From Deltaproteobacteria bacterium (GTDB taxonomy: Bacteria; Desulfobacterota; DSM-4660; Desulfatiglandales; HGW-15), in the NCBI GenBank assembly GCA_019310525.1, contig JAFDEE010000017.1, forward strand, positions 1 to 42,400: a stretch of 42,400 bases of DNA. Direction: 5' to 3'. Made by a program: the position numbers and the translations under genes. Below are positions 15,505-42,133 of this stretch, one piece after another. The notes under the pieces are model-generated. The model was not told the DNA's origin. It did no database searches and was given only the letters and a program-made list of their open reading frames with translations. How positions within the stretch are numbered: position 1 is the first letter of the stretch; every line of letters begins with the position of its first letter.

Positions 15505-15557
15505 GGGGGATTCTGTAACGGAAAAGGATTCCTTTTTTCGATAGGAGGCATCCAAAA

Positions 15558-24291: not shown

Positions 24292-27200
24292 TCACTTTGC
24301 ATGCTGGAAATAGTAGGCCACACCGTCGTTGTATCCATTTCCGAATCCCAGGAGATTGTTGCCCATGGAAACGCCGCTCGGATCCAATTCAAACTGAACT
24401 GCACGGCCGAGGCTGACTCCGGGCTTTCCCCCAACCCCCATCCCGGCGGAATCGCCTCCCAGGCTGAAATTCTTCCCAAGGTCTTCGGCGAATTTCCGTG
24501 CCGCTTTCACGATCTCCCCGTAATCCTCCAGTTCCAGGCTGAACGCCGCCACGGACCAGATGGAGACGTCGATCCCCACCAGTGCACCCACCAGGTAGCT
24601 CGTGGCCTGTTCGTAGAGATTTCCGATCAGGCTCTCCAGTATGGCCCCTTGGGCTCCTGTATCCAGTACTGCTACGACCCTGTATGTCTCTGGATCCACC
24701 TCCAGCCAGGCCCATCGCGGTTTCCCGTGGATAAAGGCCGGCCGGCTCGGAAACAGGACGATCCGATCCGTCTCCGTGAGATGTCTGATGATGGGCTCTG
24801 GGTACTTCCTCTCCTTGAGTTGACGCAGGAAGTCCTCCTGGTTCTCGGAATCCACGGCGATCAAGCGGGTGCCTTCGGGGCAATGGTTCCAGATCTGGAA
24901 AAGGCCCTTGGCTTCCCCGGAGAGGGCGCTTGCCTCAAAACGGGCGGAGGCCAGACCGGAGAGGATATTGAAGGCCCGGGCGGCCCTTGGATCCGGAGAA
25001 CGATGGATCTCGTTAAAGGGGCGGATTAAGTCCATAGTGGTTTCCAACGGGGTTTCTCCTTCCGGTTTGACCAAGGTCACCATGATACACCGCCCCAGTG
25101 ACGTACGGCCCGTCACCAGGCCGAGGGTTTTTTCCAAATCCTCCTCGTAGCGCGTCTGGGCGGCAATGAAGCGGGCCAGCACACCCCGGGCGTACCACCT
25201 GAGGGCTGATAGGGCGTCGGGCCGGCCCGGGATCTGCCTCCGGAACCGCCTGCGGGCCTGCTCCAGCCCGGCAAGGGCGTAACCCGGCAGGTCCGGGAGG
25301 TTGATTCCCAGGGTATGGAACACCCCCGTGATATCGGTGTTCTCCTTGAGTCTCATCACCCGCCGAAAGGTATCGCCGTCGGCGTCCACTTGAACGGCGC
25401 ATCCCAAGACCTGGTACGCGGAGGTGTCCACCGCGGATTCATCGTCCGTTACGATCCGCCCCGAGGGCCCGTCCAGGACGGCCTTGTAAAGGATCCGCCC
25501 CTTTCCCGGAGCCTTGGTGTATCCTATGTCGAATGCCCCCCTGCTGAGATCAGGAACCTTCAAGGAGGCGGTAAGCACCGTTACCGTCTCCTCCTCTTCT
25601 CCTCCCCCGGCCAAGGCACCTGAGAGTTCGCGCATCTGCTGCTCCCGGCCTTTTCCCTTTGGACGCACGATGAAATCGACCGAGATACCCACCACTTCCG
25701 TCTGTTCATCCTCAACGGGTTTCACCCGGTAATCCACAAGGCCCTGGAGTTCCCTGACGTTTTTCATGAAAGGGGCGACCAGCACCCGCTCCCGGCCTTC
25801 AGCGTCCCGGTAGCGGAGCCCCGGGCACTCAATCATGGCGATCTTTTCCAGCCCTGCGAGCCGTACCAGGGTCTGGCGGCCCTTTTCCGTGAGCTTGACA
25901 ATCACCCGTTCGGTCCGTATCCCCTGCCGGTTGAGAACGATCTCAGCCAGCCGGGCGAAATCGGACTCCGTTCCCCAGTTCTGGGTCAGGACCGCCTCGG
26001 GACAGTAACGTACCGCCCAGGGCGACCCCTTTGAGGGCAGCCAGCGACAGCCTGAAAGCCGCTTCTTGAGATCCCCAAGGTTCTTGAGGGATTTGAGGTC
26101 TTCCCGACCCGCAAGGGTCATGGCCGGCGGCGGGATGTATTCTCCCCCCTCAACTCCCCCCTCCAGTCCTACCTTCTTGGCCCGAACCCCTCCAGGTCGC
26201 CTGAAATCCAGCACCCTTCGCCGGGCCATGAGGGCCTCCACCTTCTCTTCCACCTCCTCCCAGAAAGAAGACCCGAGAGAATCCTCCACATCGAGCCTGG
26301 CGATTCTGAAGATCCCATCATCCACTGCTTCATTGCTTAGAGGCCTTGAAAGTTTCGGGAGCATCAGGGATCCCACGGCCCAATCATCCAGCTGCGTATC
26401 TTCCGGTATGGAAAAGAAAAAGATCCCCCGGCGGGTGTGCCCGGCAGGGATCACCGTGTTCCCATCCATCCCGAAGATCAGGGTATCCTCCGCGGAAAGG
26501 GGGAAGAGGAGCCCGGGAATGTCCTTCGTTCCCACCGATGCCGCGAAGTTTGCAAGACTCCGGTGGGGAAGCATCGCCGCCTCGTGCCGGAGCCGTTCCA
26601 ATTCCTTTTCGCGTGCCGCGGCCTTTTCCGGATCAAAAGCCCGGTTCTTGTTCTTGAGAACGATCAGCTCCCCGACCCGGGCATGTCCCCGGCCCCCTTT
26701 ATCCCGGATCGTCGCCTCAACGGCCACAAGACGGCTTCCAAGTCCGCTGATATCCTCGATGGGGCCGGCCCGGTGGATCACCACTTCCACACCTTCGCCT
26801 TCGGCATCGGGTTTTTGGGGGAGGCGGTCGGGCGGGAGGGGGTTCCCCAGGGGAACCGCCACGGATCCACCCCTGAGATCCACGACTATCTCTCCCTTCA
26901 CCCCGGTATCGGCCAGTTCCTTAGGAATACGGAACACCAGGCGGACCGGATTGCTGGAGCCCGGCGTGAACAAGGTGGGCCTGTAATAGCCCAAGGGGAT
27001 GCAGCCGGTTACAGGGTGGAGCCTGAAAAAGAAACTCCCCTTGGGTGTCGGCAACCGCAAGAGAAACCGCTCGGCAGGGTGGACATTCAGGTGCGCCTGG
27101 AGCTTTGAAGTAAAGACGCCCCTTACCACCCTGAACAGGCAGTCATCCCCTGCCTCGACCGTGTCGATCTTCGTCAGGTCCTCGTATCCGGTCACCCTGA

Positions 27201-30200
27201 AGGAGAAGGCATCGGAGAGGCGCGTGGGCTCACGGGTCGGAAGTCTCTCCAGGGCGCCCTTTTCTTTCGGTGCCATGATTCCGGATATGGGAAGATCCAG
27301 GTGGCCGTAACGGGTATCGTAGAAATGAAGGGAGGCCTGCCTCATATTTTCCGATGGGACCATGAAAAGGATCGTCCCCTCCACCGGTTCCCCCGGCTCC
27401 ACGGCAAGGGCCGTCTCACCGGGTAGGATCAAGGGAGCCTCCGCCAGCCAAGTGATCTCGGAGACCGGGTAGGAGCGTTCATTGTTCCATCTCAGGAAAA
27501 GATGCCGCTTGAGGTCCGGGATCAGGTATGTCGGCACCCGCTCCTCGTAGCGGAGGGGTTCACCGCCTCCCTTGACCCAGGCGGCGGGGTGGTTGGACCC
27601 GTCCGGGTAAACAGCCACCCTTTGGGAGGGGAGAATGTTTTCAAGGGACAGGGTCAGCGCCAGGTACCGAAATCCGTCTGGCGCATCGATACCCCGGAGT
27701 CGGGAGAGGAATAGGGCCTCCCGGAGACGAAACCGGACGGCCTTGTTGGCCGCCGTAAAATCCAGGGGGATCCGCTTGGTGACCTGCACCTCGAATCCCA
27801 CCCGGTCCTCCCCTGAGACCGATCGTGCTATTTCCGGGTCATAGGGCCTGAGGGGCGGGCCGATCTTCCAGGTGACCGCCTCCGGGGCGGCGATCTCTCC
27901 GCCCAGGGCCGCTCTGGGAAAATCCACTTCCCTGGCAGCGGAATAAAGGGTGTTTTCCCCGTCGGGGTTGTGGTGGGAGAGGACCACCCGGAGGGTGGTC
28001 CGGCCCTCCTCCGACACCTCCTGCTGGATGCTGGAGGCGAGTTCCCGGAAAACCCGGGCCACCTCCTCCGGCCGCGTGGAGATGACGAAGCGTCCCCCGG
28101 TCCGATCAGCCGCGTGGGCGAAGACTCCGTCCTTGTCCTCGTCCACCATCCCCAGCCACAGGCAACGGATCCTGGCGTCCCTTAATTGACCTAAAAGTAC
28201 GTCGAATTCCTTCTCCTGCTCCTCGTCCACCCTCAATGCGGCATCAGTGAGGTAGACCAGGTACCGGCGGGAGGAAGGAACAGCCTTGAGGGTCAACAGG
28301 GCCGTACGGACCGAGTTGAGGATGTCGGTGCCCCCCTCCCCCCGCATCAGGGACAGGGCGCGAATCAGGGCGGTCTTGTCGCGGGTCAACACCTGACGGA
28401 CCGTGCACTCATCCGTAAAGGTCATGATCTGGGCCAGGAAGTCTTCCGGGAGCTTGGTGACAAAGGATCGCAGGGTCTGCCTCACCTTTTCGATCCGGTA
28501 GTCACAACCCTCATTTTCAGGGGATTTATCCATGGAGCCGCTGTTGTCGATCACAAGGCTCATGACCGGTATGTCAGCGATTTGCGCCCGCCTGGGCCGC
28601 TCGAAGACCACCCTGTACTGGTTGCCGAGGTTTCTGGCTATCCGATCGAAGATCACCTCCAGATCACCGAGATCCCGTGCCCGGTAATAGGCCCCTCCTC
28701 CCAGGGAGGCGATTCTCTTCAGGGTGTCCACGTCGGACTTCTCGCCGAATCCGATGGTGAAAACCGGAATTCCGGCCCCCTGGACTCCGGCGAGAACCTC
28801 CTCCTGGGTGGCCTTGCTGCCGGGACCCGTGTCGTTGAAATTGGCGTCCACCCCATCGGTGAAAACGACCAGGGCCGGCCTGTTCTTTCCCCGGAGTGTC
28901 TCGAGCCCCATCAAGATGGAATCATAGAGGGCCGTGGCCCCGCCTGCACGGACCTTTTTGAGGGCTGCCAGCAGGTCCTTCTTGCTCTTTCCGGGAAGTC
29001 TCCTTGGCCTGGTATCAAAATCAATCACTGTGATACGGGCATCCCCCGGAAGGCCCTTGATGAAGCGGGCCGCGGCCTTCAAGGCCTTCTTCATCTGCCC
29101 CTTCATGGACCCGGAGGAGTCGAGGAGCAGGGTTACCTCCAGGGGCGTCTTCAGGGGCTCGACCGACAAGACTTTGGCCTCCGCCCCTGACTCGGTCACG
29201 GTCAGGTTCTCGGGGGTGGGAACAACCTTCTTCCTTTCCTCTCCCACCAGGGAGATCTCTACGACCCCTTTCCCTTCGTCGGCCCCCGCCTTCAATATCT
29301 CGAGTCTGCCCGTTCCCTCCTCCACAAAGGCCTCGGCAAGGGACGGGGGCCAATCCACGATGGTGGTCCGCCCGGCCTGTACCGGTATCATGTGGCTTTC
29401 AAGGTAAGTGATATTTTCCTGCTTCCTCGGATCCACCTGGAGCTTCCAAAGTCCAGGGGGGAGCCAGAAGACGGCCTCACCCGTCGGAGTGCGGTCCCCC
29501 TCCATTGAGGCCTCCGTAAACCCGGGGTACTCGTAGTCTCCGTCGAACTCGGGCAAGGCTCTCGCAGATCCGAACGGGACGTTCCTGAGCAGGATCCCGC
29601 CAAGGGCATCCCCCTTTTTAAGTGGTGAAAGGGCAGGACCGGGTTCAAGGCTGACCGAGACTTCCGCTCCGCCCTCTCCCTCCACCCATCGCGCCGTCCA
29701 GAGGGTTCGACCCGCAAACTGAGGGATATCTGAAAGCTCGTGCCTGGGACCATGGACCCGGTAGCATTCATGACCATAATCCACCTCGTGCCGGAGTTCT
29801 CCGTCGCAGCGCTCGTATCGGCCCTCGAACTCGATATCAGCCTTTTCGCAGGTCACATCCAGTCGCAAATACCGATCACCGGGGTGCTCCGTGTAAAAGA
29901 CAAAGGCTTCTCGATCATCCTCTTCCAAAACAAAGGTAAGCCCCTCGCCCTCCCTGAGAACGGTCTCCCGGATGATGAGGACATCGCAACGATCCTGCGT
30001 GGGGAAAAATTTCATCCATAGAGTCCTCTGTTCCGATTCCTTGAGCCGGGCCGCGATCTCTTCTTCCGTTTCGGACAGAATCTCTGCGCCCTTTTCCCGG
30101 AGCCTCCGGAGCAATTCCTCCCGGCCTTGACTACGGTCCATCCAGGGCAAGGAAAAGCTCCAGGACGACCCGGAAATATCCCTGGAAAGGCCTTCTCTCC

Positions 30201-30384
30201 CGGTCGTATCCGGAAAGGTATCTTGTCCGTCCACCCTGTACTCCACTTCTTCGGGCACCGTCCCGTCGCCCACCGGGTTGAAGGGGAGGGGAGGCGCTTC
30301 TGCCCAAAGGTTGAAGGGAAAGGCAAAAAAAAGAATCATCCCGATAAAAACTATGGAACGATGACAGACTCTTGGTGCGCCCAT
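24292..30384 (-). CDS. Giant exported protein with two von Willebrand factor A domains
   Basis: 2030 residues with a signal peptide (about 1-30, ending WAEA). Two VWA domains follow one another. The first is at about 414-595 with MIDAS DSSGS at 422-426, GGATALYDS and FTDGVD. The second is at about 605-795 with DNSGS at 613-617, GGTDILNS and YLTDAA. Both metal sites look complete. The remaining ~1200 residues are beta-rich in the first part and helical near the end; I recognise no enzyme motif. There is no clear C-terminal membrane anchor, LPXTG or PEP-CTERM signal. AAGGAG precedes the ATG at a good distance. It is alone on its strand. A periplasmic or surface Mg-dependent binding role is inferred. 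Confidence 0.88.
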   Translation of the reverse strand: MGAPRVCHRSIVFIGMILFFAFPFNLWAEAPPLPFNPVGDGTVPEEVEYRVDGQDTFPDTTGREGLSRDISGSSWSFSLPWMDRSQGREELLRRLREKGAEILSETEEEIAARLKESEQRTLWMKFFPTQDRCDVLIIRETVLREGEGLTFVLEEDDREAFVFYTEHPGDRYLRLDVTCEKADIEFEGRYERCDGELRHEVDYGHECYRVHGPRHELSDIPQFAGRTLWTARWVEGEGGAEVSVSLEPGPALSPLKKGDALGGILLRNVPFGSARALPEFDGDYEYPGFTEASMEGDRTPTGEAVFWLPPGLWKLQVDPRKQENITYLESHMIPVQAGRTTIVDWPPSLAEAFVEEGTGRLEILKAGADEGKGVVEISLVGEERKKVVPTPENLTVTESGAEAKVLSVEPLKTPLEVTLLLDSSGSMKGQMKKALKAAARFIKGLPGDARITVIDFDTRPRRLPGKSKKDLLAALKKVRAGGATALYDSILMGLETLRGKNRPALVVFTDGVDANFNDTGPGSKATQEEVLAGVQGAGIPVFTIGFGEKSDVDTLKRIASLGGGAYYRARDLGDLEVIFDRIARNLGNQYRVVFERPRRAQIADIPVMSLVIDNSGSMDKSPENEGCDYRIEKVRQTLRSFVTKLPEDFLAQIMTFTDECTVRQVLTRDKTALIRALSLMRGEGGTDILNSVRTALLTLKAVPSSRRYLVYLTDAALRVDEEQEKEFDVLLGQLRDARIRCLWLGMVDEDKDGVFAHAADRTGGRFVISTRPEEVARVFRELASSIQQEVSEEGRTTLRVVLSHHNPDGENTLYSAAREVDFPRAALGGEIAAPEAVTWKIGPPLRPYDPEIARSVSGEDRVGFEVQVTKRIPLDFTAANKAVRFRLREALFLSRLRGIDAPDGFRYLALTLSLENILPSQRVAVYPDGSNHPAAWVKGGGEPLRYEERVPTYLIPDLKRHLFLRWNNERSYPVSEITWLAEAPLILPGETALAVEPGEPVEGTILFMVPSENMRQASLHFYDTRYGHLDLPISGIMAPKEKGALERLPTREPTRLSDAFSFRVTGYEDLTKIDTVEAGDDCLFRVVRGVFTSKLQAHLNVHPAERFLLRLPTPKGSFFFRLHPVTGCIPLGYYRPTLFTPGSSNPVRLVFRIPKELADTGVKGEIVVDLRGGSVAVPLGNPLPPDRLPQKPDAEGEGVEVVIHRAGPIEDISGLGSRLVAVEATIRDKGGRGHARVGELIVLKNKNRAFDPEKAAAREKELERLRHEAAMLPHRSLANFAASVGTKDIPGLLFPLSAEDTLIFGMDGNTVIPAGHTRRGIFFFSIPEDTQLDDWAVGSLMLPKLSRPLSNEAVDDGIFRIARLDVEDSLGSSFWEEVEEKVEALMARRRVLDFRRPGGVRAKKVGLEGGVEGGEYIPPPAMTLAGREDLKSLKNLGDLKKRLSGCRWLPSKGSPWAVRYCPEAVLTQNWGTESDFARLAEIVLNRQGIRTERVIVKLTEKGRQTLVRLAGLEKIAMIECPGLRYRDAEGRERVLVAPFMKNVRELQGLVDYRVKPVEDEQTEVVGISVDFIVRPKGKGREQQMRELSGALAGGGEEEETVTVLTASLKVPDLSRGAFDIGYTKAPGKGRILYKAVLDGPSGRIVTDDESAVDTSAYQVLGCAVQVDADGDTFRRVMRLKENTDITGVFHTLGINLPDLPGYALAGLEQARRRFRRQIPGRPDALSALRWYARGVLARFIAAQTRYEEDLEKTLGLVTGRTSLGRCIMVTLVKPEGETPLETTMDLIRPFNEIHRSPDPRAARAFNILSGLASARFEASALSGEAKGLFQIWNHCPEGTRLIAVDSENQEDFLRQLKERKYPEPIIRHLTETDRIVLFPSRPAFIHGKPRWAWLEVDPETYRVVAVLDTGAQGAILESLIGNLYEQATSYLVGALVGIDVSIWSVAAFSLELEDYGEIVKAARKFAEDLGKNFSLGGDSAGMGVGGKPGVSLGRAVQFELDPSGVSMGNNLLGFGNGYNDGVAYYFQHAK

Positions 30385-31011: not shown

Positions 31012-31884
31012 ATGAGCTTCCAGAAACGACTGTCGGCAGGAAAATTCGTAGTCCTGGCCGAGTTGAACACTCCCAAAGGGGTGAACATCTCGGAACTCGT
31101 AACCAACGCCCGTCGCATCAGAGGACGCATCGACGCCGCAGTGATTCCGGACATGGACAACGGCGTCATGAGGATGAGTGCTTTGGCCGGGGGAGCCCTC
31201 ATGCAGCAGAACGGTATCGAGCCGATCATCCATGTTTACGGGCGGGACCGAAACCGCATGGCCTTGCAAGGTGATATCCTGGGGGCTTACGTGTTGGGCA
31301 TTCCGAACCTCGTCGTGGTGGAAGGGGAGCCCATGAACGCCGGAGACCATGTGGATGCAAGGACGGTGGACGACCTGGACGAACTGGGGTTGATCCGGGT
31401 GATTCATTCCCTGGAGAAGGGTTCGGACATGGCCGGCTTCGAACTGAACGGCACTCCGTCCTTTTGCATAGGGTGCGCCATTTCCGCTTGGCCCGATGAA
31501 GACAAACTGGAGGGGGAAATCGAAAAGATCCGGAAAATGGTGGAAGAGGGGGCCAGTTTCGTTCTCGCCCCTGCGGTATTCGACCTCGAGTGGTTTTCTT
31601 CATTTCTGAACAAGGTAAAAGACCTGAAAGTTCCCATAATTCCAAGCGTATTCCTGCTGAAAACGGTTGGAATCGCCAGGTACATGGCCACCTACGAGCC
31701 CGGGGCCCGTATTTCCGAGGACCTGATCAAGCGCATGCGGGGAGCCGACGACCGCGAAAGGGAAGGTATCCTTATCGCCGGCGAAACGATCAAGGGCTTG
31801 AAGGACATGGCCAAGGGAGTTCGAATCATCACCCTGGGATGGGAACATCGGTTGCCGGAAATCCTTGACGCGGCGGGGCTCTAA
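31012..31884 (+). CDS. Divergent methylenetetrahydrofolate reductase (MetF) paralogue
   Basis: 290 residues with the TIM-barrel pattern of MetF, including HVYGRDRNRMALQGDILGA (about 74-92), which parallels the canonical MetF at 36539. The catalytic Glu is kept (Glu17 in LAELNTP). Two other key positions differ. The Asp of the canonical SGDHP loop is Glu106 in EGEP, and the folate-contacting Gln of the TQ pair is Pro187 in LAPAVFD. A CxxC (Cys152, Cys155) appears that the canonical copy lacks. It may reduce a different C1 carrier or be an auxiliary subunit. AAGGAAAGGGAATC precedes the ATG. HdrA follows after 109 bp. Confidence 0.83.
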   Translation: MSFQKRLSAGKFVVLAELNTPKGVNISELVTNARRIRGRIDAAVIPDMDNGVMRMSALAGGALMQQNGIEPIIHVYGRDRNRMALQGDILGAYVLGIPNLVVVEGEPMNAGDHVDARTVDDLDELGLIRVIHSLEKGSDMAGFELNGTPSFCIGCAISAWPDEDKLEGEIEKIRKMVEEGASFVLAPAVFDLEWFSSFLNKVKDLKVPIIPSVFLLKTVGIARYMATYEPGARISEDLIKRMRGADDREREGILIAGETIKGLKDMAKGVRIITLGWEHRLPEILDAAGL

Positions 31885-31993: not shown

Positions 31994-34900
31994 ATGGAAG
32001 AAAAGAAGGATTACCCAACGAGCGATAGAGTACTTGTTATAGGAGGGGGCCTCGGGGGCATCAAGGCCGCCCTGGATCTCGCAGAGGCTGGAAAAAACGT
32101 GGTGATCGTGGACAAGGCCCCGGCCATCGGGGGTCTGATGACTCAGTTGGATCGAACCTTTCCAACCAACAACTGCGATCTGTGCACCCTTTCGCCCCAC
32201 CTGGCGGAAAGCGGCAGGAAATTGCACATTGAACTGATGACCCTTACCCGGGTGATCAAGGTGGAGGGAGAGGAAGGCAACTTCAAGGTCAGCCTTAAAA
32301 CCGAACCCCGTTACATCGATGTGGAAAAATGCACGGCCTGTGGAGAATGCCTGAAAAAATTCCCCGAGTGCATCCGATTCACCCCCGGCCTGGATCACCG
32401 TGCCCCTACCTGTATGCGTTACCCCCAGTCCACCCCCAACGCCTTCTCCGTCGATATCGAGAAGTGCAAGGACATGGATGGTCTGGTCCAGGTATGCCGA
32501 GACGGAGCCATTCTTCCGGAAGATACGCCGAAAACCCGCGAAATGGAGTTCGGGGCGATCGTCCTGGCTCCAGGGGCGGAACTCTTTGATCCCGGCGTTC
32601 TGGAAGGTTACGGGTACGGGGCTTACCCCGACGTTGTCACGGGGCTGGAATACGAACGCATCCTTTCCGCCTCCGGTCCCACCCACGGGGAATTGAAGCG
32701 TCCGTCGGACGGCAGGCAGCCTCAAAAAATCGCCTGGATACAATGCGTGGGTTCCCGGGGGATAAAATCGGGATGCGTTTCCTATTGTTCCAGCGCCTGT
32801 TGCATGTACGCCCTCAAGGAGGCCATCGTCACAAAGGAACGGTTTCAAAACGACATTGAAACCGTTGTTTTTTACATGGACATGAGGACTTCCGGCAAGG
32901 ATTACGAGCTTTACTATCAAAGGGCGAAAAAGGATTTCAACATCCGTTTTGTCCGAAGCCGCCCCCATACGGTCGAATCCGATCCGGAAACCCATAAATT
33001 GACCATCACCTATGCCACCGATGAAGACCCTATCCCCAGCCAGGAAGCCTTCGACATGGTGGTCCTCTCCACCGGATTCCGCATTCCGGAGGACTTGGTG
33101 GAACTGTCCCGGGAGCTGGGCATCGAATTGAACGAGCATCACTTTGTCAAGACCCCGGGATTCTCTCCGGTGGCCACTTCCAAACCGGGAATTTACGTTT
33201 GCGGACTCTTTGAGAGTCCCAAGGACATTCCCGAAACCATGGTCCAGGCCAGTGCCGCTGCCTGCATGGCCTCCCGGACTATTCGCAGCCTTGAAGCCGG
33301 GTCGGAAGAGCAGGAAGAATTTCCGCCCGAAAGGGATGTGAGTTCGGAGGAACCGAAGATCGGGGTCTTCGTCTGTGAATGCGGCCTCAACATCGCAGGC
33401 GTGATCCCTGTCGGAAAGCTGGTCTCCTATGCCCGAAAGCTCCCTGGAGTAGTAGTGGCGGAGGAAGTCGGCCATGGTTGTTCCGCGGAGTCGCTTCGCC
33501 GGATCCAGCAAATTATCTGGGAAAAGGGCCTCAACCGGGTAGTCATCGGAGGGTGCTCCCCGAGGACCCACGAAACCCTTTTCCAGGACACCCTGCGTCG
33601 GGCCGGCCTCAACAGGTACCTCCTGGAAATGGCCAACATCCGTGACCAGGATACGTGGGTGCACCAGGACCATCCCTCAGAGGCCCTGGACAAGGCCAAG
33701 GATGCCATACGTATGGCGGTCTCGGCCGTGGCCCTGGCCCATCCACTCACCGAACATGTCCTCCCCATGAACAAGGACGTCTTGGTCGTTGGGGGAGGAG
33801 TCACCGGGATGAACGCCGCCCTGAGCTTGGCGGACCAGGGTTTCAAGGTTTACCTCGTTGAAAAATCTGATCAACTGGGAGGCCTGGCCAAGGATATTCA
33901 CCGGACCCTCGAAGGCGAGGACGTCCAGGCTTACATGAAGGATCTGGTCGAGAGGACCCTGAACCATGAGAATATCCAGGTCATCACCCGGGCCATCATC
34001 GTGGACCATACCGGGATGCCTGGATTTTTCAAGACGGGGCTCCAGGTCGGCCGCCGCATGTTTTACCGGCAGATCAACCATGGAGTTACGATCCTGGCCA
34101 CGGGCGCCTTGGCGAACCGACCATCCGAATACCTTCTCGGGCAGCACGAGGCTGTCCTGACCCAGTTCGACCTTGATCGCCTGATTGACGACGAACCGGA
34201 TAAGATCAAGGCGTGGGAAAAGGTGGTGATGATCCAGTGCGTGGGATCCCGTACCCCCGAGAACCCCAATTGTTCCCGGATTTGTTGTCAGTCCGCTGTG
34301 AAGAATGCTCTGAGGATTCTCGATCTCAATCCCGAGGTCCAGATTTCAGTCCTATACCGTGACATGCGGACATACGGTTTTCAGGAAGACTATTTCAGGA
34401 AGGCCCGTGAGCGGGGTGTTAAATTCTTTCGGTATGACGCCGATGAAAAGCCGGTCGTCAATGCCGATGGAAATCGGGTCACCGTCGCCTTTCGTGAACA
34501 GATCCTGAACAGGGAGGTGGAAATCCCGGCGGATTGCCTGGCGCTGAGTACGGGCCTGGTGGCCGATGATGAAGGTACTGAAGACCTTTCGATGATCTTC
34601 AGGCTTCCCAGGACCCTGGATGGCTTTTTCCTGGAAGATCACGTAAAGCTCCGGCCGGTGGACTTGCCTGTGCCTGGTTTCTTCGTGGCAGGCACGGCCC
34701 ATTCCCCCAAGACCATCCGGGAGTGCATCACCCAAGCCCAGGCCGCCGCGGGGCGTGCCCAGACCCTCTTGGCCAGGGACGCCATCAGTCTGGGGGCAGT
34801 GGTGGCCAGGGTCGACGGGAAGAAATGCGCGGCCTGTCTTATCTGCGTCCGGGCCTGTCCCTTCGACGTACCCTATATCAACGCCGATGGCTATTCAGAG

Positions 34901-35035
34901 ATCGATCCGGCAAAATGCCATGGATGCGGCGTCTGCGCTGCGGAGTGCCCGGCCAAGGCCATTCAGCTCATGCAGTTTGAAGACGACCAGATCATGGCCA
35001 AGCTGGACGGGCTTTTTGAAAGGATTGCAAAATAA
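31994..35035 (+). CDS. hdrA: Tandem HdrA-like flavoprotein (HdrA-HdrA fusion)
   Basis: 1013 residues containing two HdrA-type units. Unit one has an FAD Rossmann loop GGGLGG (about 17-22), CxxC at 61-64 and a ferredoxin-like cluster at Cys113/116/119/126. Its second cluster is degraded to Cys158 and Cys168. Unit two begins with the HdrA CxCG motif (461-463), then GGGVTG (about 600-605), and ends with two complete 4Fe-4S ferredoxin clusters (Cys945/948/952/956 region and Cys975/978/981/985). HdrA is the FAD-bearing, electron-bifurcating core of heterodisulfide-reductase-like complexes. Here it is likely to exchange electrons with the MetF/MetV pair. It is translationally coupled (TAATG) to the MvhD-like gene. 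Confidence 0.92.
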   Translation: MEEKKDYPTSDRVLVIGGGLGGIKAALDLAEAGKNVVIVDKAPAIGGLMTQLDRTFPTNNCDLCTLSPHLAESGRKLHIELMTLTRVIKVEGEEGNFKVSLKTEPRYIDVEKCTACGECLKKFPECIRFTPGLDHRAPTCMRYPQSTPNAFSVDIEKCKDMDGLVQVCRDGAILPEDTPKTREMEFGAIVLAPGAELFDPGVLEGYGYGAYPDVVTGLEYERILSASGPTHGELKRPSDGRQPQKIAWIQCVGSRGIKSGCVSYCSSACCMYALKEAIVTKERFQNDIETVVFYMDMRTSGKDYELYYQRAKKDFNIRFVRSRPHTVESDPETHKLTITYATDEDPIPSQEAFDMVVLSTGFRIPEDLVELSRELGIELNEHHFVKTPGFSPVATSKPGIYVCGLFESPKDIPETMVQASAAACMASRTIRSLEAGSEEQEEFPPERDVSSEEPKIGVFVCECGLNIAGVIPVGKLVSYARKLPGVVVAEEVGHGCSAESLRRIQQIIWEKGLNRVVIGGCSPRTHETLFQDTLRRAGLNRYLLEMANIRDQDTWVHQDHPSEALDKAKDAIRMAVSAVALAHPLTEHVLPMNKDVLVVGGGVTGMNAALSLADQGFKVYLVEKSDQLGGLAKDIHRTLEGEDVQAYMKDLVERTLNHENIQVITRAIIVDHTGMPGFFKTGLQVGRRMFYRQINHGVTILATGALANRPSEYLLGQHEAVLTQFDLDRLIDDEPDKIKAWEKVVMIQCVGSRTPENPNCSRICCQSAVKNALRILDLNPEVQISVLYRDMRTYGFQEDYFRKARERGVKFFRYDADEKPVVNADGNRVTVAFREQILNREVEIPADCLALSTGLVADDEGTEDLSMIFRLPRTLDGFFLEDHVKLRPVDLPVPGFFVAGTAHSPKTIRECITQAQAAAGRAQTLLARDAISLGAVVARVDGKKCAACLICVRACPFDVPYINADGYSEIDPAKCHGCGVCAAECPAKAIQLMQFEDDQIMAKLDGLFERIAK

Positions 35036-35481
35036 TGGAAACCTTCGAACCCCTCATTGTCGCCTTTTGTTGCCATTATTGCGCTTATACTGCCGCGGAC
35101 ATGGCCGGCAGTATGCGGTTGTCCTATCCGCCCAACGTCCGTATCATCCGAGTGCCTTGTTCCGGAAAGGTGGATGCTATTCATATCATGAAGGCCTTTC
35201 AAAAGGGTGCGGACGGGGTCTACGTGGCCGGGTGCCTGGAAGGTGATTGCCATTTCAAAAATGGAAACGTGAACGCGGCCCGGCGTGTAGCTTACCTTAA
35301 AAAACTACTGGACGAAATCGGCATCGGGGGTGAGCGCCTGGAAATGTTCACCATGTCTGCCGGAATGGGAGAGCGTTTCGCCCGCGTAGCGATCGATTTC
35401 ACTGAAAAAATAAGGGAAATGGGACCTAACCCCGTCAAATCATTCTTGCAGGACCATGCCCGTGAGGCTTCTGGCTCCTAA
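35035..35481 (+). CDS. MvhD-like hydrogenase/heterodisulfide reductase iron-sulfur subunit
   Basis: 148 residues with the MvhD/FrhD-type cysteine pattern: Cys12, Cys13, Cys16, Cys41, and Cys66/Cys71 in AGCLEGDCHF. It would hold a 2Fe-2S cluster and pass electrons between HdrA and a partner. In methanogens MvhD links the hydrogenase to HdrA; in acetogens an MvhD occurs with MetFV-Hdr. The start ATG overlaps the hdrA stop by one base, so the two chains are made in fixed proportion. No hydrogenase genes are in the window. Confidence 0.92.
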   Translation: METFEPLIVAFCCHYCAYTAADMAGSMRLSYPPNVRIIRVPCSGKVDAIHIMKAFQKGADGVYVAGCLEGDCHFKNGNVNAARRVAYLKKLLDEIGIGGERLEMFTMSAGMGERFARVAIDFTEKIREMGPNPVKSFLQDHAREASGS

Positions 35482-35873: not shown

Positions 35874-36542
35874 ATGATTACTGCCGAACGGAAACCCCTC
35901 GAGGAAATCATGGAATACATTGAACCTTACCGGCGTATTCTTCTCGTGGGTTGCAACGAGTGCGTCACGGTTTGCGCGGCTGGAGGCCGAAAGGAAGTCG
36001 CCCTTCTCGCCTCCGCCCTTCAAATGGCTTCCATGCAGAGCGGCAAGATGCTCGAGATCAAGGAAATAACCCTCGAGAGGCAATGCGATCCGGAATACGT
36101 GGAAGAGCTTGTCAACGTCATCGACCAGGTCGAGGCCGTTCTTTCCATGGCCTGCGGTTGCGGCGTTCAGGAAATCGCAAAGCGATTCAAGAACAAACCC
36201 GTTTTCCCGGCCGTGAACACGGAATTCATGGGGGCCTCGGAACGCCAGGGAGTCTGGGCGGAACGATGCCAGGGTTGCGGGAATTGCATTCTCGGCCTGA
36301 CCGGGGGGATCTGCCCCATCGCCAGGTGTTCGAAGCGACTCATGAACGGCCCCTGTGGCGGGTCTTCCAACGGGAAATGTGAAATCAACCCTGAGGTGGA
36401 CTGCGCCTGGCAACTGATCTGGGATCGCCTCAAGGCCCTCGGCCTGGAGGACAAGTACGAAGAAATCATGGAAGCCAAAGATTGGCGGACGAGCAGGGAC
36501 GGTGGCCCCCGAAAAATCATAAGAGAGGATTTGGCACAATGA
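35874..36542 (+). CDS. metV: MetV-type methylenetetrahydrofolate reductase C-terminal-domain protein
   Basis: 222 residues, very Cys-rich, matching the MTHFR C-terminal (MetV) family. The N-terminal part has VGCNECVTVCAAGG; the middle has MACGCG. The C-terminal part has CQGCGNC, CPIARC, GPCGG and GKCEIN, arranged to hold metal or Fe-S centres. MetV partners MetF in the Wood-Ljungdahl pathway of acetogens and many anaerobes, carrying electrons to the MetF flavin. Its stop overlaps the metF start (ATGA), a strong sign of paired expression. AGGAGAGG precedes the ATG. Confidence 0.92.
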   Translation: MITAERKPLEEIMEYIEPYRRILLVGCNECVTVCAAGGRKEVALLASALQMASMQSGKMLEIKEITLERQCDPEYVEELVNVIDQVEAVLSMACGCGVQEIAKRFKNKPVFPAVNTEFMGASERQGVWAERCQGCGNCILGLTGGICPIARCSKRLMNGPCGGSSNGKCEINPEVDCAWQLIWDRLKALGLEDKYEEIMEAKDWRTSRDGGPRKIIREDLAQ

Positions 36543-37462
36543 AGACGGAAAGTGCGCTTGAGAAGGTTTTGGCATCGGGTCAGCTGGCGGTCACATCCGA
36601 ATGTGGACCTCCAAGGGGTGCAGCACCTGAAAAGGTGAAAGCGAAGGCCGAACTGCTGAAGGGTTACGTGGATGCGGTGAACGTGACGGACAACCAGACG
36701 GCCGTCGTACGAATGTCCAGCATGGCGGCCTGTATTATCCTTAAACAGATGGGTCTCAATCCCATCCTCCAGATGGTGACGAGAGACCGGAACCGCCTGG
36801 CCCTCCAGAGCGATATCCTCGGGGCCTATTCCCACGGCATCAATACCATGCTCTGTCTTTCCGGCGATCACCCCACCTTCGGTGATCATCCCATGGCAGC
36901 CAACGTGTATGATGTGGATTCCATACAGTTTATCCAAATCGTCAAAAAAATGCGGGACGAGGGAAAGTTCCAGGGAGGGGACGACATCGTCAACCCCCCA
37001 CGAATGTTCATCGGTGCTGCTGCCAATCCCTTCGCCGACCCCTTCGAGTTGCGCGTGGCCCGGCTTGCAAAGAAAATCAAGGCCGGGGTGGATTTCATCC
37101 AGACCCAGTGTATTTACAACGTAGCCAAGTTCAAACAGTGGATGCAGGGAGTCCGGGACCGGGGGCTCCATGAAAAGGTCAGCATCCTTGCCGGGATTAC
37201 CCCGATGAAATCCGCCGGCATGGCCAAGTACATGAAAAACAAGGTCCCGGGGATGGATGTTCCCGACGAGGTCGTCAAACGGCTCGCAGGAGTACCGAAG
37301 GAAAAACAGGCCGAAGAGGGCATTCGGATGTGCGTGGAGACGATCGAAGAACTGAAAGAAGTGGAAGGGGTTCGAGGATTTCATATCATGGCCATCGAGT
37401 GGGAACAGAAAGTTCCGGAGATCGTCGAGAGGGCTGGACTCCTTCCCAGGCCTCAGGTATAA
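36539..37462 (+). CDS. metF: Methylenetetrahydrofolate reductase, canonical copy
   Basis: About 307 residues. All key positions of the family are present: catalytic Glu21 in SECGPPRG, Asp110 in LSGDHP and Gln190 in IQTQCIYN. It reduces methylene- to methyl-tetrahydrofolate using FAD. Paired with MetV and the Hdr/MvhD module, it probably takes electrons from, or gives them to, Fe-S carriers, not NADH directly. The long open frame begins at 36482, but the ATG at 36539 overlaps the metV stop by four bases and has GAGAGGAT upstream, so it is preferred. Confidence 0.94.
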   Translation: MKTESALEKVLASGQLAVTSECGPPRGAAPEKVKAKAELLKGYVDAVNVTDNQTAVVRMSSMAACIILKQMGLNPILQMVTRDRNRLALQSDILGAYSHGINTMLCLSGDHPTFGDHPMAANVYDVDSIQFIQIVKKMRDEGKFQGGDDIVNPPRMFIGAAANPFADPFELRVARLAKKIKAGVDFIQTQCIYNVAKFKQWMQGVRDRGLHEKVSILAGITPMKSAGMAKYMKNKVPGMDVPDEVVKRLAGVPKEKQAEEGIRMCVETIEELKEVEGVRGFHIMAIEWEQKVPEIVERAGLLPRPQV

Positions 37463-37527: not shown

Positions 37528-37914
37528 ATGGGAGACAAAAAACTTATCCTGGTGGTAGATGACGATCCTGATTTGGTGGAAGCCGTCTCCATGAAGCTGG
37601 AGAGTGAAAACTTTCGTGTAGCAAAGGCCTATGACGGAGTCATGGCCTGGGAAAAAATCAAGGAAGAACGTCCCGACCTCATCGTCCTTGATGTGATGAT
37701 GCCGAAGAAGAACGGTTATGTGGTTTGCGATGAACTGAAAAATGATCCCGAGTACAAGGACATCACTGTTGTTCTTCTGACGGCGGTGGGAGAGGCCGTT
37801 ACCTCGACGAATTACACCCACATCGATGGGAAAACGTCCCTTGCTGACGAATTCATTCCAAAGCCCATTGATCTGGATGAACTTATGGAAATTATCCGCC
37901 ATTATCTGGGTTGA
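37528..37914 (+). CDS. Single-domain response regulator (CheY-like)
   Basis: 128 residues forming only a receiver domain. Phosphorylation residues are present: acidic pair in VVDDDPD (11-13), phospho-acceptor Asp55 in LIVLDVMMPKKNG, Thr85 in LLTAVG, and Lys112 in PKPID. The loop between Thr and Lys is longer than in CheY and contains THIDGKTSLAD. With no output domain it must act by protein contact. AGGAGG lies eight bases before the ATG. Two ACT-like proteins and two histidine kinases follow in the same direction. Confidence 0.9.
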   Translation: MGDKKLILVVDDDPDLVEAVSMKLESENFRVAKAYDGVMAWEKIKEERPDLIVLDVMMPKKNGYVVCDELKNDPEYKDITVVLLTAVGEAVTSTNYTHIDGKTSLADEFIPKPIDLDELMEIIRHYLG

Positions 37915-37951
37915 GCCAGATCTCTACAGGGAAAGTCCTTCAGCGGTCGTT

Positions 37952-38476
37952 ATGGGTAAGATCCCGATAGGAGGGATAAAACTGGGTCCCCGGCTCCATC
38001 TGCTAAAAATCCGGCACCCACCGACCGGCGACCCGTTGAGATGGAACCTCTGGGAGAAGCTGACCGAAAGAAAAATAAATCTTTTCTATCTCACCACCGT
38101 GTGTACCAACACACACGTAGAAACGGCATTTTGTATCTTACAGGAAAATGAAGGTCCCGTCTGGGACCTTCTTCATTCCGACGGCCGCCTGAAGGCACGG
38201 GTGCGGCTTGTTCCCGCAGTGGGGCCGCTTTCCATATTCCCTCATCAGTATTCTTTCGAAATGTTCGGCCTGTCCTTGTCCGCCCTGGGAAAGGCTCGGA
38301 TTCCTTTACACGGTCTGGCCTCTTCCGTATCTTCCCTGACCTTTCTGACCGACTACGATCTCCTTGACAGCGCGGCCGCGGCCATGCTGGAATTCCTGGA
38401 ACTGCCCTCGGGCCAAGCCCCCATAAGGCAACCGATACCCCAACCGGCTGAGAATCCGGAGGAGATCCCGGTATAA
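37952..38476 (+). CDS. ACT-like domain protein
   Basis: 174 residues if started at the ATG at 37952 (MGKIPIGGIK); the open frame extends upstream, but that part lies inside the response-regulator gene in another frame. The region from about residue 90 resembles an aspartokinase-type ACT fold. VGPLSIFPHQYSFEMFG is followed by a helix with LGKARIPLHGLASSVSSLTF and TDYDLLDSAAAAM. ACT domains bind amino acids or similar small ligands. There is no catalytic domain. The ribosome binding site is weak, so the start is provisional. A second ACT-like gene follows. Confidence 0.65.
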   Translation: MGKIPIGGIKLGPRLHLLKIRHPPTGDPLRWNLWEKLTERKINLFYLTTVCTNTHVETAFCILQENEGPVWDLLHSDGRLKARVRLVPAVGPLSIFPHQYSFEMFGLSLSALGKARIPLHGLASSVSSLTFLTDYDLLDSAAAAMLEFLELPSGQAPIRQPIPQPAENPEEIPV

Positions 38477-38512
38477 ACCCGACCCGGTCTTCAATGAGTG
38501 TATAGTTCCCCC

Positions 38513-39124
38513 ATGGATCCCTTGAAGCAACCCCAAAAGAGAAACCGTTTTTCCAGGCAAAAGGCCATGGAGACGGCGGCCGTGTACTGGGAACCCAGGA
38601 TCAAGACATACGGGTTTCAAGTGTTCCGAAACCTTTCTCTGGTGGAGATGGAAGGAAGGCCGGATCGGTTGTCCGGTTGGGCTGAAACCATCCGGTACTT
38701 TACGGGGACGGGCCTTCAATTTGCTGTTGTATGGGTTCAACCCTCCCTGAACAGCCGTTTGTGCCTATATCTGGTTTTAGATAAAGGCGGTAAAAAGATC
38801 CCGGCCGCCTCCCTTGAGACCCTCTTTCCGGAAAGAGAGGGAGAATCCGTCACCATTACCTCTCCCGTTGAGGCGATCCACTTTCAGGGGCCCCATTTCG
38901 GCGACCGGTACGGCATCGCGCAGCAAACCTTTCGAATCCTCAAAAACGGGGGCGTTTCCGTCCTTGCATCGGTTTGCAGCAGTGCCTCCATTTATCTCGT
39001 ATTGCCCTCGAAAAGGGCGGAGAAGGCAAAGGCCTTGCTGGAAGAAGCCTTTATCATTCCCAAAAGAAGGACCCCTTTGCAGGGGCCGTCTCGCCGGCCC
39101 CCTGGAGCGGCCGATGAACCCTAA
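38513..39124 (+). CDS. Second ACT-like domain protein
   Basis: About 203 residues from the ATG at 38513; a GTG at 38498 is also possible. The C-terminal part has an aspartokinase-like ACT pattern. GPHFGDRYGIAQQTFRIL is followed by GGVSVLASVCSSASIYLVLP and a helix AEKAKALLEEAF. The N-terminal ~100 residues are unlike any domain I recognise. Its 3' end overlaps the histidine kinase start by 11 bp. That overlap, and the paralogous gene before it, suggest a ligand-sensing pair feeding the kinase. Confidence 0.68.
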   Translation: MDPLKQPQKRNRFSRQKAMETAAVYWEPRIKTYGFQVFRNLSLVEMEGRPDRLSGWAETIRYFTGTGLQFAVVWVQPSLNSRLCLYLVLDKGGKKIPAASLETLFPEREGESVTITSPVEAIHFQGPHFGDRYGIAQQTFRILKNGGVSVLASVCSSASIYLVLPSKRAEKAKALLEEAFIIPKRRTPLQGPSRRPPGAADEP

Positions 39125-40619
39125 ACTAAGTAAAGAAAAAGACTGGAGGATGAGGGTGTTCGATTCCCTTTCCTTCCCCACCCTGATTCTCCGGCCGGAT
39201 AAGGTCATTATTCATGCCAACCAGGTCTTCGTGGATCATTACGGGCCCATGGAGAAAATCATCGGCAGAAAATGCCATGAAATCTTTTACAACTCCGAGG
39301 ACCCCTGTGCGGAGGAGCAATGTCCCCTTCCCAGGGTCCTGGCAGACAAGAAAGGACACTCAGCCCTGGTTGAACTCCGCTCTGAGAGCGGAGAAACCCG
39401 GTGGGAAGACCGCGTATTCTCTCCCATCCTGGACGACGATGGCGAAATCATCTACGTCATGGAGAGTGTACGGGACGTCACCCGGCTCAAGTCCCTTGAA
39501 AAAAAGCTGGAGGAGACCAAGGAATTTCTCGAAAAAGTCATTCAGGATTCCGCCAGCGCCATCGTAGCCGCGGACCTGAAGGGTAACATCCTGATCATGA
39601 ACGAGGCTGCAGAGAAACTCTTCGGGTATACCTTCGAGGAGGCCAACCGATTGAAAAACGTGGAACAAATCTATCCTCCCGGGATAGCCAGGGAAATCAT
39701 GCGAAAACTGAGGGATGATAACTATGGAGGAAAAGGAAAACTCCAGGGGGAAAAGACAACCATCATAAACTCCAGGGGCGAAGAGATTCCTGTGGAACTC
39801 AACGCCACCATCCTGTACGAGGGTGATCGGGAGGTGGCCACCATGGGCATCTTCAATGACCTCAGGGAAAAGCTCGCCGTGGAACAGGAACTGCGGGAGA
39901 CCCAAATCCAGCTGGCCCAGTCCGAGAAGATGGCATCCTTAGGGCAACTCGCCGCAGGCGTCGCTCACGAGATCAACAATCCTCTGACCGGGATCCTTTT
40001 TTACGCTGAATTGGCCCTGGAGAGTATCGAGGAGGGACATCCCCTTACTGAAAACCTCAAGAACATCACCGAGGACGTCCACCGCTGCAAGAACATCGTG
40101 AAGAACCTCCTCGCTTACAGCAGACAGACCAATCCCGCCAAAAACATCATACAGCTGAACTCCCTCGTGGACCTGAGCCTAAACCTCATCCGTGACCAAA
40201 GGCTCTTCCGAAACATCGTCGTTAAAAAGGAATTGTCCAATGAAATGATGTTGATCCATGCCGACAAAAACCAGATCACCCAGGTGCTCATCAACCTGGT
40301 GATGAACGCCTGCGACGCCATGGAGGGCCATGGGACCCTGACCTTTCGAACCTATCGGGACCTTGCCAAGAAAAGGGCCTACCTGGAGATTTCCGATACC
40401 GGATGCGGAATACCTGAAGAAAATCTTCCCCGGATATTCGACCCTTTCTTCACGACAAAAGAGCCAGGAAAGGGGACAGGACTGGGGCTCAGCACCTCTT
40501 ACGGGATCATCAAGGAAAACGGCGGGGACATTTCGGTCAAAGAGACCGGGCCGGACGGGACCACCTTCCTTGTTGAATTACCTCTTTATCGGGTGTCAGA
40601 GGATATCCCCGGCAAATAG
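39114..40619 (+). CDS. PAS-PAS sensor histidine kinase
   Basis: About 501 residues. Two PAS domains lie at about 14-125 and 135-255. The first carries an unusual cysteine group (Cys54, Cys65, Cys70) around RKCHEIFYNSEDPC and EEQCPLP, common in kinases of anaerobes and possibly redox or metal sensing. The HisKA box has His285 in AAGVAHEINNPL. The ATPase domain has an N-box NLVMNACDAM, a DTGCGIP G1 box, an FFTTKEPGKGTGLGLS F/G2 region. No membrane helix is seen, so it is cytoplasmic. The ATG at 39114 overlaps the previous gene and has GGAG seven bases upstream. The open frame reaches back to 38814 without support. Confidence 0.92.
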   Translation: MNPKLSKEKDWRMRVFDSLSFPTLILRPDKVIIHANQVFVDHYGPMEKIIGRKCHEIFYNSEDPCAEEQCPLPRVLADKKGHSALVELRSESGETRWEDRVFSPILDDDGEIIYVMESVRDVTRLKSLEKKLEETKEFLEKVIQDSASAIVAADLKGNILIMNEAAEKLFGYTFEEANRLKNVEQIYPPGIAREIMRKLRDDNYGGKGKLQGEKTTIINSRGEEIPVELNATILYEGDREVATMGIFNDLREKLAVEQELRETQIQLAQSEKMASLGQLAAGVAHEINNPLTGILFYAELALESIEEGHPLTENLKNITEDVHRCKNIVKNLLAYSRQTNPAKNIIQLNSLVDLSLNLIRDQRLFRNIVVKKELSNEMMLIHADKNQITQVLINLVMNACDAMEGHGTLTFRTYRDLAKKRAYLEISDTGCGIPEENLPRIFDPFFTTKEPGKGTGLGLSTSYGIIKENGGDISVKETGPDGTTFLVELPLYRVSEDIPGK

Positions 40620-40657
40620 GCACGCTGGATAAAACAAAAAAACAGCACGAGGATCAA

Positions 40658-42133
40658 ATGAGCATGCAGGAAAACAGCTCCGACGAGTTTAAGACGAAAG
40701 TCCTGGTGGTGGATGATGAGAAACATATCCGGGACGGATGCCGCCAACTGCTCAGCAAGGATGGTTTCCAGGTCGCGGCGGCAGAGGACGGGAAAACGGC
40801 CCTGGAAAGAATCGAGCAGGAACATTTCGACATTGTGCTCCTCGACCTGATGATGCCGGGCATTTCAGGTATTGAGGCATTGGCCCGTATAAAGTCCCTC
40901 CATCCGGATACGGTCGTGATCGTCATCACGGGATATGCCACCTTGGATCATGCCATCGAGACGATGAAAAACGGGGCCTTTGACTTTGTTTCCAAGCCCT
41001 TTTCTCCCCAGGACCTCAGGCTGGTCATCTCCAAGGCCATAGATCATCTCCAGACCCTTCGGGACATCACCCATGAAAAATCCCGAATGCGCGTGCTCAT
41101 CAACCACCTGACGGACGGTGTCCTGGCCACTGACAGGGAGAAAAAAATCGCCCTGGTCAACCCGGCGTTCCTGAGAATGATCGGCTATTTCGGCAAGGAG
41201 GCCACAGGCAGGCCGGCAGGTGAGGTCCTTCCGGACCCGTTAATGGAACGGATGATCGAGCAGGCCCTTTCCATGCCGAAAGACGAATTCTCCGAATTGA
41301 GGGAGGAAATCACTTACCACCCCCTTGATGAAACCGAGGAGCTGATCCTGGATGTGCGGTGCGTCCCATTCAGGGATAGGGTGGGGAGGAACCTGGGCTC
41401 CATCATGTTGCTCCATGACATTACGACCCTGAAAAAGATGGACCAGATGAAATCGGACCTGGTGTCCATGGTCGCCCACGAGATCCGGGGGCCTCTGAAC
41501 ACGGTCCTCATGCAGATCAAGCTGATAGTGGACGGGCTGGCAGGGGTCGTTACGGAGAAACAGAAGGAGATCCTTGATCGAACATCCGATCGGCTCAAGT
41601 CGTTGGTCCATCTCACTTCGGAACTACTGGATCTGGCCAAGATCGAATCCGGCCTGATCACCCAGGAGAAGGAAAAGGTGGACCTGGCTCCCATTCTGGC
41701 GGACCAGGTGGCCTTCTTTCAACCCAGGGCCGGGGCCAAGGGGATCCAATTGGATCTGGAAGCGCCGCCCGAACTGCCCCCTGTCCTGGCCAACAAAAAC
41801 AGCATAATCGAGGTCATTACCAACCTGATCAGCAATGCCATCAAATATACCCCTGACAAGGGCCGCGTAACCGTCTCGGCCGGGACGGAAAACGGATCCA
41901 TCTTTATCCGCGTGGAGGATACGGGTATAGGGATCGAGGAGGAAGAAGTAGACCACATCATGGAACGTTTCTACCGGGTAAAAAACGATAAAACCCGCTT
42001 TATCAGCGGGACCGGCCTGGGACTTGCCATCGTGAACAGTATCGTCAAGGCCCACCACGGAAAGATTATCGTCAAGAGCAAGGTGGACGAGGGAAGCACT
42101 TTCACCGTCTACCTGCCCATCTTTTCATCCTGA
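40658..42133 (+). CDS. Receiver-PAS histidine kinase (hybrid with N-terminal receiver)
   Basis: 491 residues. An N-terminal receiver has VVDDE, phospho-Asp63 in LLDLMMPG, Thr91 and Lys113 in VSKPF. A PAS domain spans about 142-258. HisKA has His274 in MVAHEIRGPLN. The ATPase domain has LISNAIKYTP, DTGIGIE and TGLGLAIV motifs. This order (receiver first) suits a kinase whose activity is set by phosphorylation of its own receiver, perhaps by the PAS-PAS kinase encoded 38 bp upstream. GAGGATCAA precedes the ATG. Cytoplasmic, no membrane segment. Confidence 0.93.
   Translation: MSMQENSSDEFKTKVLVVDDEKHIRDGCRQLLSKDGFQVAAAEDGKTALERIEQEHFDIVLLDLMMPGISGIEALARIKSLHPDTVVIVITGYATLDHAIETMKNGAFDFVSKPFSPQDLRLVISKAIDHLQTLRDITHEKSRMRVLINHLTDGVLATDREKKIALVNPAFLRMIGYFGKEATGRPAGEVLPDPLMERMIEQALSMPKDEFSELREEITYHPLDETEELILDVRCVPFRDRVGRNLGSIMLLHDITTLKKMDQMKSDLVSMVAHEIRGPLNTVLMQIKLIVDGLAGVVTEKQKEILDRTSDRLKSLVHLTSELLDLAKIESGLITQEKEKVDLAPILADQVAFFQPRAGAKGIQLDLEAPPELPPVLANKNSIIEVITNLISNAIKYTPDKGRVTVSAGTENGSIFIRVEDTGIGIEEEEVDHIMERFYRVKNDKTRFISGTGLGLAIVNSIVKAHHGKIIVKSKVDEGSTFTVYLPIFSS

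Follow-up and report, generated by a model that had tools for sequence, protein, structure and literature searches.

Why should an operon that already encodes a canonical methylene-H4F reductase, MetF, be headed by a second gene of the same fold? The window, i.e. the whole 42,400-nucleotide stretch of DNA analysed here, raises this question through five genes on its forward strand:

31012..31884, + strand: metFx, an MTHFR-fold paralogue and the first gene of the operon (profile match, predicted model, structural matches)
31994..35035, + strand: hdrA, 1013 amino acids, two TrxR-like domains, starting 109 nt after metFx
35035..35481, + strand: mvhD (FlpD), 148 amino acids (PF02662, E=1.5e-53)
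35874..36542, + strand: metV, 222 amino acids (PF12225, E=1.1e-38)
36539..37462, + strand: canonical metF, 307 amino acids, overlapping metV by 4 nt (PF02219)

The gene that we call metFx is an open reading frame with an ATG start encoding 290 amino acids, immediately preceded at its 5' side by a ribosome-binding-like stretch (AGGAAAGGGAA). An earlier note on this locus had given its coordinates, frame and residues correctly, as it had the Glu21, Asp110 and Gln190 of the canonical copy. The genes hdrA, mvhD, metV and metF are contiguous and co-directional and form an Hdr-MetVF operon that would lie near the 6S type; the window stretch from metFx to metF contains neither hdrB nor hdrC. Matches to the CdhD family in the source genome are consistent with the Wood-Ljungdahl pathway.

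As to the surroundings, response regulator and PAS/histidine-kinase genes lie directly 3' of metF (37528-42133), and a response-regulator gene is also found upstream of metFx in a related locus (L164). A 2030-amino-acid frame on the minus strand (24292-30384), divergent from the operon and separated from metFx by about 630 nt, has, judged by eye, a signal-peptide-like start and VWA-like stretches, and at 12549-16730 two ATPases of type II/IV secretion (T2SSE) come after a histone-deacetylase-domain protein.

MetFx retains the MTHFR fold

Both paralogues of the operon match Pfam PF02219 (MTHFR), MetFx with E=1.8e-23 and MetF with E=8.9e-41, and they share 32% identity in pairwise alignment; the same profile is matched by 69/69 members of MetFx set A2. 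Structure prediction, one of the checks proposed in the earlier note, returned an MTHFR fold: the AlphaFold model built from 69 family sequences has a pLDDT of 92.4 and a pTM of 0.91, and its confidence is among the lowest in both loops of the pocket (blocks 41-60 and 101-120). The top matches of this model among solved structures are all MTHFRs (Foldseek E 8e-15), and VIA-align superposes 271-274 residues on them with a Z of 28.0 and an rmsd of 2.8-3.2 Å. Judged by the model, MetFx shares the (beta-alpha)8 fold of MTHFR.

The folate site is dismantled

Residues were compared in two sets. The positions singled out by the earlier note were counted in the best 80 of 142 matches, relatives retrieved through protein alignment alone, and a joint alignment brought together 81 window-type (class I), 17 class II and 7 class III MetFx with Thermus MTHFR, 42 operon MetF and 4 other MetF (46 in total). 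The positions concerned in the window protein are:

31054..31062, + strand: Leu15-Ala16-Glu17, where Leu15 replaces the Thr of MetF and Glu17 corresponds to E. coli Glu28
31147..31149, + strand: Pro46, diagnostic of the class, in place of Thr (Thermus Thr49; joint alignment)
31327..31329, + strand: Glu106, in place of Asp (E. coli Asp120; alignment and family counts)
31465..31476, + strand: Cys152-x2-Cys155, Cys152 being private to the window protein and Cys155 conserved in classes I and III
31570..31572, + strand: Pro187, in place of Gln (E. coli Gln183; alignment and family counts)
31822..31824, + strand: Arg271, in place of His (Thermus His270; joint alignment)

The placement of Glu106 on the Asp position and of Pro187 on that of the folate-contacting Gln, proposed in the earlier note, was confirmed by pairwise and multiple alignments, including those with solved MTHFRs, and family-wide counts make both substitutions features of the class. 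Indeed, among the best 80 of 142 relatives position 187 is Pro in 79 and Ser in 1, and position 106 is Glu in 72, Asp in 3, Ala in 2, and Val, Gly or Thr in 1 each. In the joint alignment Glu106 is present in 73/81 class I MetFx, the window protein included, which lacks the Asp of MetF. Gln at the pterin-anchoring site occurs in 0/105 MetFx of that alignment, with a single outlier elsewhere (L160_47); the site is instead occupied by Pro, Asn or Thr, and positions 106 and 187 both drift in class II.

The joint alignment also pinpoints deeper changes that the earlier note had overlooked. The Thermus Thr49 site is Pro in 105/105 MetFx and Thr in 46/46 MetF, one MetFx outside the alignment (L165_3) having Asn46, and the Thermus His270 site is His in 46/46 MetF, in 4/81 class I and in 0/24 class II and III MetFx. 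Two residues before the catalytic Glu, most MetFx have Leu (Leu15) where MetF has Thr (Thr19), and a comparison of conservation showed either residue to be fixed within its family. In MTHFR, according to the text available of PMC9900621, Glu, His, Ser and Thr are linked by hydrogen bonds into a network, and with Pro46 and Arg271 the window MetFx keeps neither its Thr nor its His. As for the catalytic Glu of MTHFR, its retention holds for the window protein (Glu17) and for all 24 class II and III MetFx of the joint alignment, but not for every close relative: among the best 80 of 142, position 17 is Glu in 75, Gln in 3, His in 1 and a gap in 1, and Gln is found in the class I orthologues L057, L059, L060 and L061 and His in L064. 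The kept Glu is a weaker argument because of these variants.

Mutants of the E. coli enzyme, as described in the accessible part of PMC11094777, give a scale for these losses: Glu28Gln is essentially inactive, with about 0.002-0.01% of the activity left, Km is some 260 times higher in Gln183Ala, and kcat falls to 0.3% in Asp120Asn. The same part of that source reports that flavin-free Mfr naturally carries Glu at the Asp position, so the change from Asp to Glu, although a class feature, is weak evidence of an altered site when taken alone. The changed folate handling suspected in the earlier note is supported by the joint loss of the Gln anchor and of the surrounding Thr/His network. Since the folate anchor and the catalytic proton network are both replaced, the sequences, read against these partly consulted mutant data, indicate that MetFx very probably no longer reduces methylene-H4F.

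A flavin pocket is probably kept, and the CxxC is a coincidence

Twenty-four positions are invariant in both MetFx and MetF, including Arg78-Asp79-Arg80-Asn81-Arg82, Asp112-His113, Lys217 and Trp277-Glu278, and in class I a conservation of at least 0.97 is reached by 33% of the positions at strand C-ends versus 19% of the rest. Conservation of the strand-end residues common to both proteins makes it probable that the barrel of MetFx continues to bind a flavin.

The gain of Cys152-x2-Cys155, which the earlier note had also pointed out, stands as far as the presence of both Cys in the window protein is concerned, but not as a functional motif. Among the best 80 of 142 relatives, Cys152 occurs in 0/80 (Thr in 56/80) and Cys155 in 76/80, whereas in class II position 152 is Cys in 12/17 and position 155 is Ser or Thr. 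By these alignments the CxxC is a coincidence, in one protein, of two separately placed Cys, and a metal or disulfide site was ruled out, as the motif is private to the window copy.

MetFx is a separate and constrained subfamily

Phylogeny of the MetF paralogues, a second check named in the earlier note, shows MetFx to be monophyletic: a FastTree of 103 proteins places all MetFx in a single clade of 60 (support 0.971), within which L165_3, the Asn46 protein labelled MetF, also groups. Median omega amounts to 0.104 in 78 metFx pairs and to 0.067 in 103 metF pairs, values that denote purifying selection, and MetFx diverges faster, with a median identity to the window proteins of 62% versus 80% for MetF. 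Typing of 60 further genome stretches at positions 46 and 187 (one partial gene, L049_53, could not be typed) separated 50 Thr46 proteins, all with Gln187, from 45 Pro46 proteins, one with Gln187. This exception, L160_47, has also retained Asp106, and the L160 gene at 7367-8236, in which Pro46 accompanies the ancestral-like Asp106 and Gln187, encodes a possible evolutionary intermediate.

Matches at E<=1e-80 were obtained in 79/297 genomes of the phylum, a figure that is an upper bound for MetFx because some of the matches (e.g. L155, L157, L167 and L169) were Thr46/Gln187 MetF. The names attached to the best 80 of 142 matches are all Desulfo-, delta- or Syntrophobacteraceae, with one 'uncultured proteobacterium'. 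Carriers in culture include Desulfospira joergensenii (L147), Desulfofustis glycolicus (L134) and Desulfatitalea alkaliphila (L096). The single clade and the common fold establish that MetFx descends from methylene-H4F reductase, and the clade, the purifying selection and the distinct residues and gene position define it as an old, constrained, separate subfamily rather than a decaying copy. This conserved, monophyletic subfamily is bound to its operon and has undergone more active-site losses than the earlier note listed.

MetFx is bound to Hdr-MetVF operons

Among the best 80 of 142 loci, the order metFx-hdrA-mvhD-metV-metF is found in all 63 with enough sequence; where the sequence is long enough, metFx is followed downstream by hdrA in 78/78, mvhD in 68/68, metV in 64/64 and metF in 63/63. 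An HdrB match occurs in only 1/80 of these loci, and 23/80 (a count from the listing) have an HdrC-like gene at a distance of 0.92-1.11 kb upstream of metFx and on its strand. None of the 45 Pro46 proteins is encoded directly after metV, versus 17/19 Thr46 proteins among the rows listed. The suggestion of the earlier note that the paralogue serves as a subunit beside HdrA gains weight from this attachment of the gene to Hdr-MetVF operons in many families.

Other arrangements occur. L162 and L069 have metFx-hdrE-hdrB-hdrA-mvhD-metV-metF, with fhs also upstream in L069, L177 has metFx-hdrC-hdrB-hdrA-mvhD-metV-metF, hdrE-hdrB precede metFx in L154, and class III MetFx adjoin fhs. In L170 (7729-9153) one 475-amino-acid open frame combines MetFx residues 1-267 with an HdrC-like 4Fe-4S domain and is followed by hdrB; this frame, from one MAG and without the last ~20 MetFx residues, may be the product of a deletion or an assembly artefact. 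In the source genome itself, contig C19 carries a class II MetFx, with Arg at the Gln position and Ala at the Asp position, between two further Hdr-MetVF operons (L055, L056), alongside which lie further genes of 513 and 554 amino acids. In L174 (63-5707), MetFx adjoins a pterin-binding methyltransferase-like gene, a 675-amino-acid MTHFR-MetV fusion and a shikimate-dehydrogenase-like gene.

Two simple rules were considered and rejected: MetFx is not a general replacement of HdrBC, as it occurs together with hdrC-hdrB and hdrE-hdrB, and Hdr-MetVF does not strictly depend on MetFx, as genomes lacking MetFx have Hdr-MetVF operons without it (L181, L184, L188, L190).

The adjacent HdrA has lost cluster ligands in the window lineage

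Three features of the window HdrA are of note here:

32330..32497, + strand: inserted ferredoxin domain, ligand pattern C-C-C-F / C-M-L-C
32654..32656, + strand: Glu221, aligned with the bifurcation-marker Glu356 of M. thermolithotrophicus HdrA
32816..32818, + strand: Lys275, aligned with the bifurcation-marker Lys409 of M. thermolithotrophicus HdrA

The Glu356/Lys409 pair is defined as a marker of bifurcation in HdrA in PMC9430772 (available portion), and both residues are kept in 69/69 class I HdrA. The ligand positions 246, 249, 252 and 303 are likewise kept in 69/69, whereas Cys is found at 256 in 1/69, at 299 in 1/69 and at 293 in 55/69; all eight ferredoxin-domain Cys are present in 1/69 class I HdrA, the other 68, the window protein among them, having lost ligands. 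With the usual ferredoxin ligand pattern, one cluster site of the inserted domain is presumably kept and the other lost. Since the HdrA of L162, L069, L159, L160, L173 and L186 keep all eight Cys, the loss is a trait of the window lineage and not general to MetFx; ligand loss is also seen in L158. A simple dependence of this loss on MetFx is not generally supported, the HdrA beside MetFx in L160 and L173 having all eight Cys. Its length places the window HdrA among the short forms, close to the S. ovata type, which has no GltD insertion, and MetFx is also found with HdrA of about 1400-1490 amino acids, the size of the Moorella-like form for which PMC9430772, in its available portion, describes a predicted NAD(P)H site.

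Comparison with known systems

The hdrA-mvhD-metV-metF order of the window is that of HdrABC-MvhD-MetVF of Moorella thermoacetica and HdrCBA-MvhD-MetVF of Sporomusa ovata, and the window HdrA resembles that of S. ovata in having two TrxR-like domains, one of them with the Glu/Lys markers (PMC9430772, in part). The window operon differs from these six-subunit complexes, as far as that text describes them, by the extra MTHFR-fold gene at its head and by the absence of hdrB and hdrC inside it, and its HdrA by one degenerate cluster site in an inserted ferredoxin domain that is itself present. Among the MTHFR types 2S, 3S, 6S and X it would lie near 6S, but none of these types, in the accessible text of PMC8515935, has a second MTHFR-fold subunit. 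MetFx has the fold of the MetF of the MetVF pair and of MTHFR (Z 28 to the Thermus enzyme) and shares with MetF the invariant RDRNR, Asp-His, Lys and Trp-Glu; MetF, unlike MetFx, is encoded directly after metV, and MetFx alone has the change from Thr to Pro, the loss of Gln and His, and the change from Asp to Glu. The uncharacterised Cthe_2304 (PDB 3ijd) also has an MTHFR fold like that of MetFx (Z 22), but with 14% identity, and it binds methyl-H4F according to its entry title, whereas MetFx is without the Gln anchor.

No description of a MetFx-type subunit was found in the literature searched, although it could be drawn in supplementary figures such as S10 of PMC10553843. The available portions of the sources mention no second MTHFR-fold subunit for the S. 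ovata and Moorella complexes (PMC9430772), for the ANME-associated sulfate reducers, which have hdrA beside metF (PMC10553843), for ANME archaea (PMC9012536) or for Thermacetogenium (PMC6895022).

What MetFx may do

We consider it moderately probable that MetFx belongs to the Hdr-MetVF complex as an accessory subunit, a former reductase that has kept its barrel flavin and now serves in electron transfer or in the docking or redox tuning of HdrA. The complex would comprise HdrA, MvhD, MetV, MetF and MetFx, joined in some cases by HdrBC or a membrane HdrE, and the C1 chemistry would be carried out by the real MetF of the same operon. To judge from gene order, MetFx would contact HdrA, or HdrC/HdrE where present, and not MetV, and would most likely deliver electrons to the Hdr module, take them from it, or set the docking or redox behaviour of HdrA. 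Against this stands the fact that MetFx is not obligatory and that the described acetogen complexes have none. Glu17 is moreover kept in 75/80 of the best 80 of 142 relatives and in all 24 class II and III proteins, for which a purely inert barrel would have no need, one Pro46 protein (L160_47) retains Gln187 and Asp106, and the HdrC fusion of L170, which would speak for the subunit role, may be an artefact.

The same dismantled folate machinery, the drift of positions 106 and 187 in class II and the faster divergence from MetF would also suit a pseudoenzyme scaffold without redox cofactor that assembles or regulates the complex, e.g. as heterodimer partner of MetF or HdrA. We regard this as unlikely, given that conservation in class I is higher at strand C-ends than elsewhere and that the RDRNR, Asp-His, Lys and Trp-Glu residues common to MetF suggest a retained ligand. 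The accessory-subunit reading has a sharper form, likewise unlikely, in which MetFx keeps the NAD(P)H half-reaction and forms a site for NAD(P)H or a similar carrier that feeds or drains HdrA. MTHFR barrels accommodate NADH and folate at a single site, NADH can still reduce FAD in E. coli Asp120Asn (PMC3156243, in part), and the window-type HdrA is short, in an operon without HdrBC, with ligands of one cluster lost in 68/69. The same partial source, however, reports that Glu28Gln also lowers the reduction of FAD by NADH, class I has natural Gln and His variants at this position, and MetFx co-occurs with long HdrA of the size that is predicted to bind NAD(P)H.

That the altered pocket takes a different substrate, another C1 carrier or a pterin, is in our view very unlikely. 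The mostly kept Glu17, the natural Glu at the Asp position of flavin-free Mfr (PMC11094777, in part), and the fhs and pterin-binding methyltransferase-like neighbours of class III and L174 would fit such an enzyme, but Gln to Pro together with the loss of the Ser-His-Glu network removes pterin anchoring and proton delivery, and Glu17 itself is naturally Gln or His in some class I proteins. Least probable of all is an ordinary, redundant methylene-H4F reductase that tolerates its substitutions: the fold is the same and the window copy has Glu17, yet Thr, Gln, His and mostly Asp, invariant in 46/46 MetF, are changed together in every class, and the gene never directly follows metV in the Pro46 set.

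Starting from the accessory subunit, a bolder version can be drawn, which we offer as a rather unlikely proposal. MetFx would be an unrecognised electron port of Hdr-MetVF in Desulfobacterota, a second-recruited MTHFR barrel without folate chemistry that docks on HdrA (or HdrC/HdrE) for hydride exchange with a carrier, be it NAD(P)H or some other. In the window lineage this would have allowed HdrA to dispense with HdrBC and with one of the clusters in its ferredoxin arm, the bifurcating flavin being retained.

Significance

Even for acetogens it is not settled by what route electrons pass between MetVF-type reductases, HdrA and further partners, and the accessible parts of PMC6085437 and PMC8515935 call the second acceptor of the Moorella complex unidentified. 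A conserved subunit that resembles the enzyme but is stripped of its chemistry is a tangible candidate for this contact, and sulfate reducers in culture allow it to be tested cleanly by genetics. Furthermore, metFx genes match the MTHFR profile and are likely counted as spare copies of MetF in annotations. In many sulfate-reducing bacteria a look-alike of a folate enzyme heads an energy-metabolism operon and is probably an overlooked part of an electron-transfer complex rather than a second copy of the enzyme; should it indeed be an electron port, the so far missing partner of methyl-H4F oxidation would be identified in those sulfate reducers that oxidise acetate.
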